Below are positions 295 through 33,722 of a DNA stretch of 64,000 nt, one piece after another. Numbering within the stretch: the first letter of the stretch is position 1; every line of letters begins with the position of its first letter. A program made the position numbers and the translations under genes. The notes below the pieces were generated by a model. That model was not told the DNA's origin. It was given only the letters and a program-made list of their open reading frames with translations, and made no database searches. Origin of the DNA: Gammaproteobacteria bacterium (GTDB lineage: Bacteria; Pseudomonadota; Gammaproteobacteria; SZUA-229); contig JAPHRO010000036.1 of NCBI GenBank assembly GCA_026195895.1, positions 1 through 64,000 on the forward strand, in the 5' to 3' direction.

Positions 295-1366
295 CGACGA
301 ATAATACCGGGGGCCTGGCTCACCTTAATTGCGGGGGCCTCACCAGCCCCCAACACCACTATCACTTGACCCGCAAGGGTCAAGGTTGGACGACCAATCC
401 AACCAGGCCGGGATTGCTAACCCCGGCTGAGCATGCGCTGTAGCGCAGTGCCCGTAATGGGGCTCGCTGCGTTGCAACAAGCGCTCAGAACTGCAATGTT
501 TTGTTCGACTTAATCTCATCAAAAAGCAGATTGGGCGACGCGGAAACGGGCCGAAGGGGAATGTGCTGAAGCACTGAAACCTGAGGATCCCTGTCTACGT
601 GAGAAGGGGTGAAAATCCCCGGTAAGGGCGGCGAGAGATCGTCGAACTTATTCCTGGCAGGTGGGCTGCACGCACGGTAGGAAACTACCTTGAGCCTGGG
701 AGGAGAAATCTAGACCAGGCGGTACCAGAATGCGCAAGCACACTGGATCGTTGTATAGCTCAAGCCTGTAATTGCGACCGAAGAGGCCGCATCCGGGTAA
801 GTGAAGTGATGCCAGTGCCTATCCCAGAAGTGGATAGGTGGTTGAAGCTGGAAGTGTTGGCGTGAGTAAGGGAGCTGCTTTGGAATCTCGGGCCCCCGAA
901 AACCTACTAGGCGAGGTGGAAAACACCTAGCGACCAACATGAGGCGCTGGCTAACGGATCGACTCTGTAGTCTAACGCGGGAAGGCCTAAAGAACTGTGA
1001 TCCACGGGTGGTTCCGTGGGTAGTTCTATGGCTGGGAGCATCGTGAGTAGGCTGAAAATCTCTCTGGCGGTTCAACCGAAGCCATTGAGAGAGCACGACA
1101 TAATCGGGGTGGTACCCGTGGTCGAGCAAAGTGCTGAAAGCGATATGCGTATGCGAAAAGTGACTGGGCGTGGTAGCCCAGGTGGTGTTTGAGCATGACG
1201 TTTCTGAACGGGTGGTGCCGCAGAAATGTCGTGTGTCGAGGTGGTACTCGACAACTCATTTAATTTATTTAACGTAGCGAAGCAGGAGGACAAATAGTAA
1301 TGATTGGCCATTTTAGTTCAGGCCTGGCCAACCCATAGCGCCCCACCATTGTGGTGGGGCGCTTTT
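295..1366 (+). ncRNA. Giant (~1.07 kb) ornate structured non-coding RNA, GOLLD/ROOL-like by size and context, family unassigned
   Basis: At least 15 local hairpins, several with perfect stems and GNRA loops (e.g. 365-384 CTTGACCC-GCAA-GGGTCAAG; 676-689 GGTAG-GAAA-CTACC; 630-643 GGCGA-GAGA-TCGTC), five GUGGUN hexaloop hairpins in the 3' half, 3' terminator; only spurious ORFs. 5' boundary approximate. Confidence 0.72.
1338..1366 (+). terminator. Rho-independent terminator of the giant RNA
   Basis: 11-bp perfect stem GCGCCCCACCA/TGGTGGGGCGC, TTG loop, T4 tail. Confidence 0.8.
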
Positions 1367-2358: not shown

Positions 2359-3987
2359 TTATGCTTCTGCGTTAATGATAACTGGCACGTTTAAATCCGG
2401 ATATTCGATTTTACAAATAGCCTCGTTTAAACGTTGGAGAGAGAAGCTAGTGCCATAGCGCCGCCCCATTTTTTGAGTGTTACTGTGTCCCATCAGGGCA
2501 TCAGAAATTTCCTCATCCAGCCCTGCTTCGCGGCAGGCATCTCGGAAATTATGACGAAAGCTATGAAACACTTTACACGGATCAGTGATTTCCAGATCTT
2601 TTCTCAAATACTTCATAAAAGCTTTGGAAAATGCAGCTGAGAACTTGCCAAATCGATCGGGTCGCAACGTAGGAAACAGTTTTTCCTTACCCTGTGTTTT
2701 TACCTGTTCGACATATAGTAGGAATCCTGCTTTAACGAGCTCTGGGTGCAGTGGCAGCCGTCGACGCGAGGCCGTATTCTTGAGCCGCTTTTCTTGTCCA
2801 TTTTCACCCGGCATATCATCAATGACTAAGCAGTAAATGCCATCGATACGCTGCACATCTTCAACCAACAGTTGCCCAAGCTCTTCCACACGACATCCCT
2901 GGTATAAGGCCAGAAGTGGAATCCAGACACTTGCTTCGCCTACTCGGCGACCCAAACGCTGCCCGTGAGTGTAAAGAGGCGATTCAAAAATGCGGTTAAG
3001 ATCAACCCGGTCAAACGGCAATCGATGTCGACTGTCATTTTTTGGAACAGGAACGCGCTGTGCTGGATTAACTACCAACTTGCCACTATTGATGCCCACG
3101 TTAAAAAGAGCACACAGAAAGGTTATTTTTTTATTGACTGTTTTTGACCGTAGTCCACGACCTATCAGGTCGTCACGATAGCGAATGATGTCCTGCCGAT
3201 CAATACAGCTAACATCTTTATTACCAACCAGTCTTTGAAAATCATCGATAACCCTGCGCACATCATCAACAGTTCGTTTTGGCCGATTAGGATCAAAACG
3301 CTGCCAGTCCTCGAAAAGCTCTTCGAGGCTCAATTCAACCTGCGTTGAAGAATTGATGGTTGTGTTGCTTGGTGCTTGCGGTGTCCAGACAACTTCACCT
3401 GCATCCCTCGCTATTTGTTGCTCATGAACTTCCGTTGCCGTTTGTAGAAAACGATAAAGGAGACTGCGATACTGCTGCTGCTCACCCGTTAACTCGACAC
3501 CGATCATGTGCAGGAACACCTGCATGGCAGGCTCAATCGATTCAAGCTGACATTTTCTTAGCGTCTCTCGCAGCAATTCACGCGTCGCACGGCGTTCCTC
3601 AGCCCTTTCCTCCAGCTCTTCGCTGAATAGGCCTTCTCGGCGACTGTATTCATCGCCAGACAGCGTGTAATGACGCCATAAGTCACAGACTTCCTGGATC
3701 AGGCTGTCATCGATGACGCGTGTAGTCTTGCTGCCCTGACTAGTCTGAAGATCATCACGCAATCGCTGGCAACGGCAGTCGAAATCTACCGAAGCCTGCC
3801 GAGCCAGGCGTCTGGCCGTAGCCTGATCCTTAGTCTTGAGCGAAAATTTTTCTTCTGACTTGCCCAGATATCCCCGAAGATCGCTCGGGATTCTGGCGCG
3901 AAAGTAGTAAGTGGAATTGCGTTTGAAAAGGTGTGTTTGCGCATACATGTCTAACATCCAGGTGTACCCCTGTGGTGTACCAGTCAT
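2359..3987 (-). CDS. Site-specific tyrosine recombinase/integrase
   Basis: 542 aa ORF; C-terminal catalytic-like segments GCRVEELGQL, HSFRHNFRDACREAG, LMGHSNTQKMGRRYG; next to tRNA-Ser 3' end. True start may be at MYAQTHLFKRN. Confidence 0.88.
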   Translation of the reverse strand: MTGTPQGYTWMLDMYAQTHLFKRNSTYYFRARIPSDLRGYLGKSEEKFSLKTKDQATARRLARQASVDFDCRCQRLRDDLQTSQGSKTTRVIDDSLIQEVCDLWRHYTLSGDEYSRREGLFSEELEERAEERRATRELLRETLRKCQLESIEPAMQVFLHMIGVELTGEQQQYRSLLYRFLQTATEVHEQQIARDAGEVVWTPQAPSNTTINSSTQVELSLEELFEDWQRFDPNRPKRTVDDVRRVIDDFQRLVGNKDVSCIDRQDIIRYRDDLIGRGLRSKTVNKKITFLCALFNVGINSGKLVVNPAQRVPVPKNDSRHRLPFDRVDLNRIFESPLYTHGQRLGRRVGEASVWIPLLALYQGCRVEELGQLLVEDVQRIDGIYCLVIDDMPGENGQEKRLKNTASRRRLPLHPELVKAGFLLYVEQVKTQGKEKLFPTLRPDRFGKFSAAFSKAFMKYLRKDLEITDPCKVFHSFRHNFRDACREAGLDEEISDALMGHSNTQKMGRRYGTSFSLQRLNEAICKIEYPDLNVPVIINAEA

Positions 3988-4046: not shown

Positions 4047-4136
4047 TGGCGGAGAGGCAGGGATTCGAACCCTGGGTAGGGATAAACCTACGCCGGTTTT
4101 CAAGACCGGTACATTCAACCGCTCTGTCACCTCTCC
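4047..4136 (-). tRNA. tRNA-Ser (anticodon TGA)
   Basis: Complement reads GGAGAGGTGACAGAGCGGTTGAATGTACCGGTCTTGAAAACCGG...GGTTCGAATCCCTGCCTCTCCGCCA; acceptor stem, long variable arm and encoded CCA. Confidence 0.95.
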
Positions 4137-7666: not shown

Positions 7667-7928
7667 TCTTAATAATTACTTCTGCTGATAAGATTTTCGT
7701 AAACGAATATGAGGCGCAATAATAACCTTCTATTTCAAGGTAGCCAAGAGCAATCAGCCGATCAATACAAAATATGTGACAATTTGCGTAAATTAGCAGC
7801 AAAATTAAAGCTATTTCATGCAAATATCTGATTTTAAAGACCATCAATGGGCACGACCGCTGCCTGTCCTCTATGCCCATTCAATGTGCTACACTCCATG
7901 CACCCGGGTTCAATTATTAGACCAAAGT

Positions 7929-8681
7929 ATGACCCAGATAATATCTTTAAACTGCCAGGAACTCATCGAACTTTGTAAAACAGCGGAGACTGTTGATGAA
8001 ATACATAATATATGCTCAATGGCCAGCAACCAGTTTGGCTTTGAACAATTTATGTATGGTAGCCGAGTGCCTACTTCTTTTGTTCGTCCCCAGCTTATTA
8101 TTATCAGCGGTTATCGCAAAGACTGGTGGGATCATTATACCGAACAGGAATATATGAAAGTCGATCCCATTGTCAATTATTGTGCAAATAGCACTATTCC
8201 CATGCAATGGCATGAACTCAATCACCCTGTTGAAGATAAAAAACGCGTCCAGCAACTCGCCAATGAATCCAGCGATTTTGGCTTAAACAGTGGCTTTAGT
8301 TTTCCGGTGCACTCCCCCAGAGGAGAAGCGGCCATGTTAAGTTTTTCTTCCAGTGAAAAACCGATCAACGCGGCACCGCGCATGCAGGATGCCGGACCTC
8401 ATTTAATGATGCTGGCTTACCATATTCACGAATCGGTCATGCGCATATTCCGTAATTCGGACAAAATAAGTCCTGCGGTGATTCTGACTGGCCGGGAAAA
8501 AGAATGCCTGCTATGGGCTGCAGAAGGAAAAACATCGGATGAAACAGCACAGATATTACACATATCCGAAAGCACTGTGAGATTCCATTTAAACAATGCA
8601 GCGAGAAAACTTAACGTGCACACACGACGTCATGCTATAGCACGTGCCATATGCCTTGGACTTATCACCCCTGTTATTTAA
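7929..8681 (+). CDS. LuxR-family transcriptional regulator (autoinducer-binding + HTH)
   Basis: ORF track extends to 7818; likely start MTQIISLNCQE at 7929. C-terminal LTGREKECLLWAAEGKTSDETAQILHISESTVRFHLNNAARKLNVHTRRHAIARAICLGLI. Confidence 0.9.
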   Translation: MTQIISLNCQELIELCKTAETVDEIHNICSMASNQFGFEQFMYGSRVPTSFVRPQLIIISGYRKDWWDHYTEQEYMKVDPIVNYCANSTIPMQWHELNHPVEDKKRVQQLANESSDFGLNSGFSFPVHSPRGEAAMLSFSSSEKPINAAPRMQDAGPHLMMLAYHIHESVMRIFRNSDKISPAVILTGREKECLLWAAEGKTSDETAQILHISESTVRFHLNNAARKLNVHTRRHAIARAICLGLITPVI

Positions 8682-8985
8682 TTCTATTTTTAACTCTAGT
8701 CTTCTCACTTTTACTACTCATTTTTCATTCATCTTGTTCACTCCGTCACAAAATCAGCATTTCTACTTTTGTACATTGCTTTTCAATTAACAATACATCC
8801 ATGTAACTAAAACCCCACCCAATAGCTTGTTAGAGACGGCTGTGACAATGGGTATCAAGCAAGGACTCGATGTTTATTTTTTACATCACAACCCTGTTTG
8901 CCACTGACCCTAGCAAATCTGCCAGTTACATTTCATTTGGTTTTTTTATTAACTGTTATGCATACCATCTTATGGAGGCCAGTTA

Positions 8986-9606
8986 ATGAATACTGTTATT
9001 ACAAATCATGCGAATCATTTCACTTTTCATCCCGGGCTTATCAAATCCATGTACCAATTAAGAGATCGTGTATTTAGATGTCGATTAGGCTGGGATGTAA
9101 CAAGCACGGATGGAAACGAAAAAGATCAATATGACGAAATCAATCCTGTTTACATGATGTCCTGTAATGAAAGCAAACAACTTGAAGGGTGCTGGCGTAT
9201 TCTGCCTACAACCGGTCCCTACATGTTAAGAGATATTTTCCCTGAATTATTAAGAGGCGAAGAACTGCCTGAACATGAAAATATATGGGAATTAAGCAGG
9301 CTGGCCGTTGACCCCCAGAAAAAACATTTTCGATTCAAAGGAAACATGAATGAAATCACTCTCGATTTATTTAGAAATATTTATGAATATGGAATAAAAA
9401 ACAACATAAAGCGTTACGTCGCAGTCACCAGCACACCCATGGAACGAATCCTGCGACTAAACGGAATACCTACAACACGCTTTGGCGATGGCAAAACCAC
9501 AAGAATTGGTAACGTCAATTGCCTGTGTATCTGGATTGATGTAAATGACGAACTGAGACAAGCCGTATACAAACCATTTAAACTTGATGATAGGGAAGCC
9601 GCATGA
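8986..9606 (+). CDS. LuxI-family acyl-homoserine-lactone synthase
   Basis: LRDRVFRCRLGWDV...YDEINPVYMM...GCWRILPTTGPYMLRDIFPEL...ENIWELSRLAVDP, characteristic LuxI motifs. Confidence 0.92.
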   Translation: MNTVITNHANHFTFHPGLIKSMYQLRDRVFRCRLGWDVTSTDGNEKDQYDEINPVYMMSCNESKQLEGCWRILPTTGPYMLRDIFPELLRGEELPEHENIWELSRLAVDPQKKHFRFKGNMNEITLDLFRNIYEYGIKNNIKRYVAVTSTPMERILRLNGIPTTRFGDGKTTRIGNVNCLCIWIDVNDELRQAVYKPFKLDDREAA

Positions 9607-15482: not shown

Positions 15483-17765
15483 ATGATAATAAGATATTCA
15501 GAATGGATTTTGAAATGGCGCTACCTGGTGGTATTGCTATCTATAACCGGCGTCCTGTTGCTGGCCAGTGGCGGCAAAAATCTGGTATTTAAAAGTGACT
15601 ATCGGGTTTTCTTCAGCAAGGAAAATCCCCAGTTAAATGCCTTTGAGAATATGCAAAACACCTATACCAAAAATGACAACCTGCTCTTCGTCATCACGCC
15701 GAAAAACGGCAGGGTATTTACCCCGGAAACACTCACCGCCATCCAGGATATCACTCAGCAAGCCTGGCAAATCCCCCATTCCATCCGCGTTGACTCCATC
15801 ACCAATTTCCAGCACACCTATGCAGAAGAAGATGACCTGATTGTAGACGATCTGGTAGCCGAACCGAGCAGTTTAAATCAGGACGATCTGTTTTATGTGC
15901 AAAAAGTGGCCCTGAACGAACCCATGCTGATAAATCGGTTAATTTCCAGGAACAGTGCCTACACGGGTGTCAACGTAATCATCCAGTTACCGGGCATCAA
16001 TGAAATGAAAGAAGTGCCCGAAGTGGTTAGTTTCGCCCGTCAAATAAAAGCTGACTACGAAAGCAAATATTCTGGCATCGAGATTCGACTGGCCGGTATG
16101 GTGATGATGAACAACGCCTTCCCTGAAGCCAGCCAAACGGATTTCAAAGTGCTAATCCCAGCCGCTTTTGGCGTGATTATCGTTGTGTTATTGCTGTTAT
16201 TACGCGGTTTTTCAGGCACTGCCTCCACGGTGATTCTGGTCGCTTTTTCTATCATGGCTGCGATGGGTACCGCTGGCTGGTCAGGTATGTATCTAACGCC
16301 ACCATCCGCCTCTGCACCCACAATTATCTTAACCATCGCTATTGCAGGTGCGGTTCATTTACTGGTCACCATGCTGCAGGAAATCCACAAGGGGGCCAGT
16401 AAACATGATGCAATTATCGAAAGCATGCGGGTTAATTTCATGCCCATTTTTATTACCAGCCTGACCACCACACTGGGCTTTTTAAGCCTTAATTGGAGTG
16501 AAGCCCCACCGTTTCGTGACCTGGGTAATATATCTTCTTTTGGTGTGGTCGCAGCCTTTATTCTGACCATGACCTTCCTGCCGGCCCTGATGTCCATATT
16601 GCCAATCAAAGCCAGGCACCTTGTTGCCGGCACTGACATGATGGACAAATTAGGTGGTTTTGTCGTGGCTAAACGCAAACCGCTATTGTACGGCATGAGT
16701 GTTGCGGTGGTAATACTGATCAGTTTTATTCCAGGCAATCAACTGAATGACGTGTTCGTCAATTACTTCGATGAATCCGTCGAATTCCGCCGCGATACGG
16801 ATTACACCGCCGAGCATCTGACCGGCACTTACACCATCGCTTATTCGCTGGATAGTGGTGAAGCAGAAGGTATCAGCAAGCCTGAATTTCTGGCACAGGT
16901 GGAACAGTTTGCCAACTGGTATCGTCAGCAACCGGAAACTATTCACGTCGCCAGCATTACCGATACCTTCAAACGCCTGAATAAAAATATGCATGCTGAT
17001 GAAGAGGCCTATTACCGGCTGCCCGATAACCGTGAGTTAGCTGCGCAATATCTATTGCTCTACGAAATGTCGTTACCCTATGGACTGGATCTGAATAACC
17101 AGATTGATGTGGCCAGGCAGGCAACGCGCTTGAACGTCACCCTGGAAACCATTTCCTCAAACCAGATTCTTGCCCTGGAACAAAGGGCCAACGCCTGGAT
17201 GAAACAACATACCCCCGCGATTGCCACTGATGGCGCCAGCCCTTCCATCATGTTTGCCCACATTGGCAAGCGGAATATTATCAGCATGCTGACTGGCACG
17301 ACGATCGCCCTGACACTGATCTCGCTGGTATTGATTGTCGCACTGGGCTCTATCAAATACGGCATCGTCAGCCTGATTCCCAATCTGTTCCCTGCCGGTG
17401 TTGCCTTTGGCATCTGGGGCCTGGTGGTTGGGGAAGTAGGTCTGTCTCTGTCGGTGGTAACCGCGATGACGCTCGGCATCGTGGTGGATGATACGGTACA
17501 TTTTATCAGCAAATATCTGCGGGCACGCCGGGAAAATAATCTGGACACCCATGAAGCGGTACGCTATGCCTTCAAAAATGTCGGCGTGGCACTGTGGGTT
17601 ACCTCGGTCGTGCTGGTGGCCGGCTTTATGATTCTGTCGCTATCCACTTTCGAATTAAATTCCGGCATGGGCTTGATGACCAGTATCATAATCTCGATTG
17701 CGCTGATACTGGACTTCCTGCTACTGCCCCCGCTATTAATGAGAATTGACGCTAACAAGAAATAA
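15483..17765 (+). CDS. RND/MMPL-family transporter
   Basis: 760 aa with two 5-6 TM blocks and duplicated MMPL/SSD-like architecture; IVVDDTVHFISKYLRARR. Confidence 0.9.
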   Translation: MIIRYSEWILKWRYLVVLLSITGVLLLASGGKNLVFKSDYRVFFSKENPQLNAFENMQNTYTKNDNLLFVITPKNGRVFTPETLTAIQDITQQAWQIPHSIRVDSITNFQHTYAEEDDLIVDDLVAEPSSLNQDDLFYVQKVALNEPMLINRLISRNSAYTGVNVIIQLPGINEMKEVPEVVSFARQIKADYESKYSGIEIRLAGMVMMNNAFPEASQTDFKVLIPAAFGVIIVVLLLLLRGFSGTASTVILVAFSIMAAMGTAGWSGMYLTPPSASAPTIILTIAIAGAVHLLVTMLQEIHKGASKHDAIIESMRVNFMPIFITSLTTTLGFLSLNWSEAPPFRDLGNISSFGVVAAFILTMTFLPALMSILPIKARHLVAGTDMMDKLGGFVVAKRKPLLYGMSVAVVILISFIPGNQLNDVFVNYFDESVEFRRDTDYTAEHLTGTYTIAYSLDSGEAEGISKPEFLAQVEQFANWYRQQPETIHVASITDTFKRLNKNMHADEEAYYRLPDNRELAAQYLLLYEMSLPYGLDLNNQIDVARQATRLNVTLETISSNQILALEQRANAWMKQHTPAIATDGASPSIMFAHIGKRNIISMLTGTTIALTLISLVLIVALGSIKYGIVSLIPNLFPAGVAFGIWGLVVGEVGLSLSVVTAMTLGIVVDDTVHFISKYLRARRENNLDTHEAVRYAFKNVGVALWVTSVVLVAGFMILSLSTFELNSGMGLMTSIIISIALILDFLLLPPLLMRIDANKK

Positions 17766-32666: not shown

Positions 32667-33722
32667 TCAACGACAGCTCGATGCATTGCACAATAATTCA
32701 TAGGCAATGGTGTCGGCACATTTTGCCACCCTGTCAACGGTCAGCTCCGGCCCCCACATCACCACTTCATCGCCGCAGCGTGGACGGTCAATATTACGCA
32801 AATCGATCGCCACCGAGTCCATGGATACGCGACCTAACAACTGAGTTTCACGGCCGTTGATCCAGACCGGCGTACCCGTACCTGCATGGCGCGGATAACC
32901 ATCGCCATAACCTACACCAACAATCCCCACCGGCATATCTTCCGGGCATGCCCAGAGATCACCATAACCGATGGTAGCGCCTTTGCGTAGTAGATTTATC
33001 GCCAGCAGATCTGCTGTCAATTGCATCACCGGTTGCAGGCCTAACTCTGCCGCTGTTTTATTGGCAAATGGTGATGCACCATACAACATGATGCCGGGTC
33101 TGACCCAATCCCCCTGAATATCGGAAAACGCAATCAAACCTGCCGAGTTGGCCAGACTGGTTTCGGCATTGAACTGGCTGGCCAGTTGCTGGAAACACGC
33201 TATTTGTTGTTGATTAGCCGGATGTTCCGGTTCATCCGCATTGGCAAAATGACTCATCAGCCCCAGTTCATTAATAACCGGCGCCTGCTGTAATCGGTGC
33301 CAGGCCGGTTCCGCTTCCGTTTGCTGAATACCCAGCCGGCCCATGCCGCTATTGATTTTCAACCAGACCGAGAGTTGCCCCGCAGTTAACTGCTCAATCA
33401 GCTCAATTTGCCATAACTGGTGCACGGCGGGGCGGATTTTATGCTCCAGCATCAGCTGCAGTTGCTGCTGGTTTTGAAAGCCCTGAAACACGGTAATCGG
33501 ATGGTTGATGCCGGCTTCGCGTAAGGCCATTGCCTCACCGAATTGCGCGACCGCAAAAGCGTCCGCCTGTTGCAGGCATTGGGCAACCTGGATCATGCCA
33601 TGACCATAGGCATCCGCCTTGATCACTGGCATCACCCGGCTGCTGGGAGCTAGTTGCTTTACCCGTTGAAAGTTGTGCTGTAACGCGCTGAGGTCAATAC
33701 TGGCCCGGGCATTACGGATCAT
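32667..33722 (-). CDS. alr: Alanine racemase
   Basis: RNARASIDLSALQHNFQRVK, VIKADAYGHGM, GYGDGYPRHAG. Confidence 0.95.
   Translation of the reverse strand: MIRNARASIDLSALQHNFQRVKQLAPSSRVMPVIKADAYGHGMIQVAQCLQQADAFAVAQFGEAMALREAGINHPITVFQGFQNQQQLQLMLEHKIRPAVHQLWQIELIEQLTAGQLSVWLKINSGMGRLGIQQTEAEPAWHRLQQAPVINELGLMSHFANADEPEHPANQQQIACFQQLASQFNAETSLANSAGLIAFSDIQGDWVRPGIMLYGASPFANKTAAELGLQPVMQLTADLLAINLLRKGATIGYGDLWACPEDMPVGIVGVGYGDGYPRHAGTGTPVWINGRETQLLGRVSMDSVAIDLRNIDRPRCGDEVVMWGPELTVDRVAKCADTIAYELLCNASSCR

Follow-up and report, generated by a model that had tools for sequence, protein, structure and literature searches.

Organization of the locus

At one end of the 64-kb stretch of DNA analysed here (the window) lies an integrative element whose features are, in order, a fragment of the gene for a protein that we refer to as P230, an inverted repeat (169–195), a terminator-like hairpin, a large structured RNA gene, an XRE-like regulator, a small ORF, an integrase, and a tRNA-Ser gene. 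The RNA gene is about 1.07 kb long (295–1366, + strand) and was recognised from its blastn relatives, a genome scan, an alignment of close relatives, covariation, and the lack of any Rfam match. In the alignment of seven relatives with the same neighbourhood, conservation extends from a TCGCTATt/a block at about 256–263 across the region to the terminator, and 295–1366 is a very good description of the RNA boundaries. A reading of the ORFs found none of at least 60 aa on the + strand within 295–1366, and the RNA strand folds more stably than shuffled sequence, with an MFE of −444 kcal/mol against −375 ± 10 kcal/mol for 12 local block shuffles of mononucleotides, which serve as a rough control only. 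The gene ends in an intrinsic terminator (1337–1366, +), assigned from a terminator-like site at 1337–1363 together with the close-relative alignment, and a further terminator-like hairpin, found by terminator scan and the same alignment, lies just 5' of the gene (228–254, +). No promoter-like site was found in a sigma-70 scan.

P230 is a protein of about 230 aa, first noticed in plasmids of E. coli and Gluconacetobacter and present in 79 loci. The window holds its first 19 codons (MYDQQVQIHKTVLMQRLLD; 2–58, − strand), cut by the contig start and recognised by six-frame reading against the P230 alignment, in which the corresponding Sedimenticola locus (L034) reads MYDPLVHLHKTVLMQRLLD. The remaining part of P230 was not found in the host assembly, indicating that the other end of the element is missing. 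The inverted repeat between P230 and the RNA (169–195, no strand assigned) covaries in the integrative-element branch, where compensatory changes keep the stem, and it could be either a leader hairpin of P230 or a DNA site.

The integrase (2359–3987, −) is of the tyrosine type, with DUF6538 and Phage_integrase domains in a domain scan, and Sedimenticola (L034) and a Chromatiales MAG (L046) have close homologues of it adjoining their copies of the RNA. In both of these the same integrase, RNA and P230 are found at tRNA-Ser, and a related integrase occurs in Variovorax (L054). The predicted tRNA-Ser(tga) gene (4047–4136, −) is the presumed integration site, as this integrase type is found at tRNA-Ser in L034, L046 and L054; an attachment-site search returned only other tRNA-Ser genes. 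A sequence-only reading of this DNA had assigned the RNA to an integrative element, with an integrase and a tRNA as its neighbours, and this setting is confirmed. The XRE-like ORF (133 aa; 1419–1820, −), read by eye as element cargo or regulation, is not conserved in related loci. Two further observations concern the surroundings. In Sedimenticola a large ATPase gene is located beside P230 (L034: 1–1527) and by eye resembles a BREX/DUF499-type defence ATPase, and outside the element, at 7818–9606 of the window, adjacent ORFs look by eye like a LuxR-type regulator and an acyl-homoserine-lactone synthase.

A conserved and covarying fold

A consensus of 74 non-redundant sequences has 92% standard pairs. 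The central multibranch domain (652–799, +), which we refer to as model R1, was delimited by alignment, fold and pair counts; it is closed by stems 653–657/793–797 and 658–669/750–768 and contains hairpins at 675–688, 694–720, 721–749, and 773–791. Among 71 sequences, 28 of its 36 pairs show changes on both sides, 96.9% of cells are paired as against 71.3% in shuffles while slid controls collapse, and the covariation score is 0.689 versus 0.196, with slid controls at 0.05–0.11. The RNA is real, and its covarying structure is conserved across distant bacteria.

The flanking domains differ in how widely they are kept. The 5' domain (333–427, +) consists of four successive hairpins (333–351, 365–384, 385–403, and 407–427) with compensatory changes among the seven close relatives, and is fully kept only in the integrative-element branch, E. 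coli-type copies either lacking it or having a different one. The conserved core (436–549, +) is defined by the consensus of the 74 sequences and comprises a long stem (436–453/460–483), a hairpin (486–503), and a stem at 505–515/529–538, together with the near-universal motif TGGGCGACRYGGAAACGG at 532–549. The 3' domain (1000–1253, +) carries repeated GUGGUN-loop hairpins at 1000–1021, 1105–1118, 1164–1181, and 1234–1253, and was recognised from loop counts: across 71 loci the tetramers GTGG and TTGG occur 86 and 92 times, the next tetramer occurs 23 times, and there are no GTGG-loop hairpins on the antisense strand. The loop form is (G/U)UGG(C/U)N.

The four 5' hairpins had already been proposed from the sequence alone, as had hairpins at 630–643, 676–689, 694–720, 725–746, 818–838, 914–928, 991–1027, and 1059–1092, and in all of these the pairing is kept by compensatory changes in the seven close relatives. 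Others fare less well. The hairpin at 606–620 is nearly unchanged among these relatives, that at 563–574 finds little support in them, and the terminator helix (1337–1363, +) is present but loosely aligned. A local hairpin proposed at 431–451 has no compensatory cells, the conserved fold there being the longer-range stem 436–453/460–483. Absent from the earlier reading were the main long-range architecture (505–515/529–538, 658–669/750–768, and 653–657/793–797, with hairpin 773–791) and the tandem GUGGUN-loop hairpins of the 3' domain.

Known RNA families and the distribution of the RNA

At gathering thresholds Rfam recognises only two tRNAs in the window. A covariance search of positions 150–1500 gave no convincing match at E values up to 10, and no family matched any of 13 related loci at E values up to 5, so neither GOLLD, ROOL, OLE nor any other Rfam family is matched by covariance. 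A divergent GOLLD, one of the options in the sequence-only reading, finds no support at either gathering or lax thresholds. The other option, a new class of giant structured non-coding RNA, is the one that holds: there is no coding frame, covariation is strong, a covarying fold is kept in the relatives, and no Rfam family, including the known introns and rRNAs, matches. The RNA appears to be a previously undescribed class of large structured RNA, no earlier description having been found in open PMC texts (subscription papers and bioRxiv being not fully searchable).

More than 100 relatives were found in alpha-, beta-, and gamma-Proteobacteria and in Thermus plasmids. Searches with blastn located the RNA on plasmids, at first those of E. 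coli, Halomonas, Komagataeibacter, Gluconacetobacter, Novacetimonas, and Ralstonia, with further matches in Acinetobacter, Azotobacter, Thiothrix, Paraphotobacterium, Pseudoalteromonas (pMtBL), Burkholderia, Paraburkholderia, and Pandoraea. Scanning species-representative genomes with a degenerate core pattern (A motif TGGGCGACRYGGAMACGG, B motif AGCTNAAGC) identified 82 stretches, nearly all in alpha-, beta-, and gamma-Proteobacteria. Only one of 145 genomes of relatives and two of 398 Proteobacteria drawn from the phylum carry the RNA, the window's own genome included, a sporadic pattern that points to a mobile distribution.

Some individual carriers deserve mention. Divergent copies of the RNA occur with a divergent P230 on Thermus plasmids (L107: 12555–12699, L136: 12994–13132, L137: 9192–9336), and no T4SS is annotated in the Thermus plasmid stretches seen. 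A Thiothrix plasmid (L014) has two RNA copies (17381–17526 and 32778–32923) and two rep genes, resembling a cointegrate. An RNA-bearing contig labelled as an Oscillospiraceae MAG contains an Rfam PK-repBA pseudoknot (L085: 2163–2278) and may be a misbinned proteobacterial plasmid.

A relationship to the giant RNAs of phages had been suggested, and does not hold. DNA searches found the RNA in none of 50,697 phage records, the core pattern occurs in no viral contigs, and P230 is absent from phages, so that we reject a phage origin or link; the carriers are plasmids and integrative elements. These data also bear on the idea that the RNA is an ornate RNA-only cage of the GOLLD/ROOL kind that resides on plasmids instead of phages. 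Its similar length, its many GNRA hairpins, and the tRNA and integrase adjoining it in the window fit such a cage, but the absence of any Rfam match to GOLLD, ROOL or OLE and of any copy in phages or viral contigs makes it improbable, and the RNA has a strong protein partner whereas none is known for ROOL (PMC12286853).

A divergently encoded protein partner

Both genes can be placed at 78 loci, and at 73 of these the P230 gene is upstream of the RNA and oppositely oriented. The N-terminal fragment in the window has this same divergent position. Conversely, searching with P230 by itself led to eight plasmids or parts of plasmids, and in five of them (Thermus pTA16, Polaromonas, Sulfuriferula, Thermus pTA14, and T. 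oshimai) model R1 locates the RNA where the divergent arrangement predicts it. The link between RNA and P230 is predictive in both directions. Model R1 did not find the RNA in two Acetobacteraceae plasmids, even with filters off, or beside one weak P230 match; the P230 proteins of these two plasmids are longer, at 388 aa (L105: 6192–7358 and L106: 9645–10811). The Thermus P230 matches the family profile with an E value of 2.4e-22, showing that the pair crosses phyla.

No relatives of P230 were found in Pfam, NCBIfam or PDB sequences. AlphaFold2 models of two different members have pLDDT values of 95.9 and 91.8, and in Foldseek searches of the PDB both align best with a protein chain from a group II intron ribonucleoprotein (8t2r_D, E 0.14, probability 0.75 for the first model; 8t2s_D, E 0.048, probability 0.96 for the second), the second model also matching, lower down, RNA-dependent RNA polymerases, a retron RT, and HIV RT. 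These models suggest a fold resembling an RT palm and thumb, which we treat as a hint only, because no single match is significant and sequence profiles do not support it. The P230 alignment contains no conserved YxDD, no other Asp pair, and no near-invariant Asp, and comparison with group II RT profiles is no better than the reversed control, which in fact scored higher.

One interpretation of the structural matches is that the RNA and P230 derive from a group II intron ribonucleoprotein and still act as a ribozyme, either self-mobile or DNA-inserting, that is carried along by plasmids. Along with the two intron RNP chains matched by the models, the RNA is large and GNRA-rich and shares a GGUGAAAGUCC-type hairpin with group II introns. 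We nevertheless regard such a retroelement derivative as distinctly unlikely, since the Foldseek E values are not significant, the protein lacks the Asp pairs of an RT and fails the profile comparison, Rfam group II models (D1–D4 and D5/D6) fail to detect the RNA even with lax thresholds in a search that does recover true introns, and an RNA-profile search against five group II introns gave no match. The gene order also differs, as the P230 ORF is not inside the RNA, where an intron-encoded YxDD maturase would be, but outside and divergent. Membership of the group II introns as such is rejected by the covariance models, the RNA profile search, and the protein profile comparison.

Carriers of the RNA have no recognisable relaxase

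PLSDB types 38 of 39 RNA plasmids and all 34 P230 plasmids as non-mobilizable, that is, without a relaxase; of plasmids with a related coupling protein, 1203 of 1344 are typed as mobilizable or conjugative, so that this wider coupling-protein family usually occurs together with a relaxase. A six-frame search of 19 complete plasmid records for the relaxase families PF03432, PF08751, PF03389, PF01076, and PF07514 found none, and P230 itself matches no Pfam family. For the E. coli 30-kb plasmid, which is not among these 19, Pfam scans of ten of its larger or unknown proteins found no relaxase; it has no annotated recombinase. It is possible that carriers encode an unrecognised relaxase, for instance of the MOBC or MOBT families, or of the tyrosine-recombinase type (MpsA, TcpM, MobK) where a recombinase is present. 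As observed, the plasmids and integrative elements that carry the RNA have no recognisable relaxase.

Components of conjugation are nonetheless present on the large plasmids. Those of E. coli, Gluconacetobacter, Ralstonia, Pandoraea, and Paraburkholderia have full sets of T4SS genes together with SSB, TrbM or EexN, which are hallmarks of conjugation, yet none has an annotated relaxase. At 17 loci a coupling-protein gene is situated within about 0.9–2.5 kb of the RNA or beyond P230, and the coupling proteins beside the RNA are homologous to one another. A conjugative T4SS with a coupling protein was found for large plasmids only, and many RNA loci, including most of the small plasmids and islands, have no T4SS gene nearby. 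There is no match to VirB4 in the window's genome, and the element there would thus be mobilizable at most with a helper.

In several plasmids the RNA adjoins T4SS genes, and some islands have apparent R-M or ATPase cargo next to it. It could accordingly also be a regulatory or defence-related RNA that governs expression of the T4SS, entry exclusion, or the element's anti-defence functions. To this we assign only a slim chance, as the RNA is present on plasmids of 3–6 kb with nothing of the kind to regulate, and a satellite need not carry a trans-acting regulator that its helper already makes.

Small plasmids that retain the RNA

The E. coli 3-kb plasmids contain the RNA, a RepL-type or no annotated Rep gene, and little else, with neither P230 nor a T4SS. 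Their RNA is 95.7% identical over 719 bp to that of the 30–34-kb E. coli plasmids, far above other sequence shared by the 3-kb and 30-kb plasmids, which consists of a 150-aa gene (74% DNA identity) and a 178-bp repeat (80%). The 150-aa gene lies near the RNA (L010: 25746–26204 in the 30-kb plasmid, L003: 2289–2741 in the 3-kb plasmid) and has no Pfam match. The element of about 178 bp occurs three times between genes of the 30-kb plasmid (L010: 4266–4440, 19235–19412, and 20091–20268) and once in the 3-kb plasmid (L003: 797–974), and is possibly a shared regulatory or cis element. Both plasmid sizes are found together in strain FHI_NMBU_11, the sole such strain among 5426 genomes with 7 small and 14 large plasmid records. 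The satellite keeps its own copy of the RNA while having no P230, and since an RNA acting in trans would not be needed there, this points to a role in cis; the arrangement would fit an RNA that works in cis with proteins supplied in trans.

A Novacetimonas plasmid of 6.3 kb carries the RNA and fragments resembling the Gluconacetobacter T4SS plasmid, and these similarities suggest that it arose from a T4SS plasmid by deletions that spared the RNA. A 12-kb Novacetimonas plasmid was considered as its helper and rejected, as the two have no common sequence and only their co-residence stands.

Most carriers are plasmids, frequently small and cryptic ones, and finding one RNA of about 1 kb on almost all of them would agree with a core function in maintenance. 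In that case the RNA, together with P230, would govern plasmid replication, copy number, incompatibility or partition, and the integrative elements would keep it as a relic or for stability of the excised circle. In the Pseudoalteromonas plasmid pMtBL, however, the RNA match (3120–3462) is outside both the mapped minimal origin (1918–2759) and the par genes, and vectors with OriR only replicate (PMC10033558, PMC6848147), which rejects an origin or partition role in that plasmid. The Rep and Par systems of the carriers are moreover unrelated, the RNA is also found in chromosomal islands with integrases, and maintenance leaves the relaxase absence and the coupling-protein link unexplained. We consider a maintenance role unlikely, if not negligibly so.

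A possible role in mobilization

The best single explanation for the relaxase absence, the adjacency to coupling proteins, the RNA-only satellites, and the islands is that the RNA and P230 are a mobilization ribonucleoprotein that replaces relaxase and oriT, a proposal to which we give about an even chance. RNA and P230 would form a ribonucleoprotein doing the job of a relaxase plus oriT; the RNA, made locally, would mark its own encoding DNA together with P230, and perhaps nick or prime it; and the complex would then present the marked DNA to a resident T4SS through its coupling protein. In this way the large plasmids would move themselves, whereas for small RNA-only plasmids, and for islands such as that in the window, a helper would supply the T4SS, the coupling protein, and P230 if it is missing. 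Formation of the complex, action in cis, DNA processing, and contact with the coupling protein are all steps that we infer. A more specific version, which we put forward tentatively and hold to be somewhat more doubtful than probable, is an RNA-based initiator of conjugation: an RNA of about 1 kb, with a catalytically dead P230 of RT fold, would replace relaxase and oriT, select and possibly cut the DNA that encodes it, and hand this to the T4SS coupling protein, with RNA-only plasmids and islands as hitch-hikers.

Several observations weaken the mobilization proposal: P230 of Acetobacteraceae without the RNA, loci without a T4SS, the lack of VirB4 in the window's genome, and the single strain with co-resident plasmids, as well as the fact that E. 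coli plasmids of both sizes have the 150-aa gene and the 178-bp repeat in common besides the RNA. We know of no transfer experiment for any RNA or P230 plasmid.

Many plasmids are classed as non-mobilizable for want of a relaxase, yet spread. If the proposal is correct, it supplies a transfer mechanism for a set of such plasmids and islands (in E. coli, Acinetobacter, Pseudoalteromonas, Thermus, and others), a new marker for mobility typing, and a mode of conjugation centred on RNA. Whatever the function turns out to be, a large RNA family of deep conservation is paired here with a protein family of its own, neither being represented in Rfam, Pfam or NCBIfam, and a 3-kb E. coli plasmid makes the RNA amenable to study.

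Comparison with known systems

GOLLD, ROOL, and OLE are of a similar size class (0.6–1 kb) with an elaborate multi-helix fold, and GOLLD and ROOL are also located on mobile elements. They have no sequence or covariance match to the RNA described here, which differs further in residing on plasmids and integrative elements and not phages, in its obligate-looking protein partner, and in its relaxase-less context. The group II intron ribonucleoprotein is likewise a large, GNRA-rich structured RNA with one protein partner, to which the RT/maturase-like P230 models bear a likeness, but the RNA has no Rfam match, no domain V was found in it, and it has its own terminator, and P230 lacks an RT active site and is encoded outside and divergently from the RNA.

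Mobilization of SGI1 requires a small RNA that the island itself encodes, sgm-sRNA (PMC9299015), which is the closest precedent in function and speaks for the mobilization proposal. The SGI1 module (MpsA/MpsB/oriT with sgm-sRNA) is similar in needing an element-encoded RNA for mobilization by a helper T4SS and in having an atypical relaxase. It is restricted to one island family and works with the tyrosine-recombinase-like MpsA, whereas the RNA here is far larger, deeply conserved, and accompanied by P230. The canonical MOB arrangement of relaxase, oriT, and T4CP shares the position beside coupling protein and T4SS, and the small RNA-only plasmids parallel oriT-only plasmids; the carriers here differ in having none of the five tested Pfam relaxase families and, in their place, a covarying RNA and P230.
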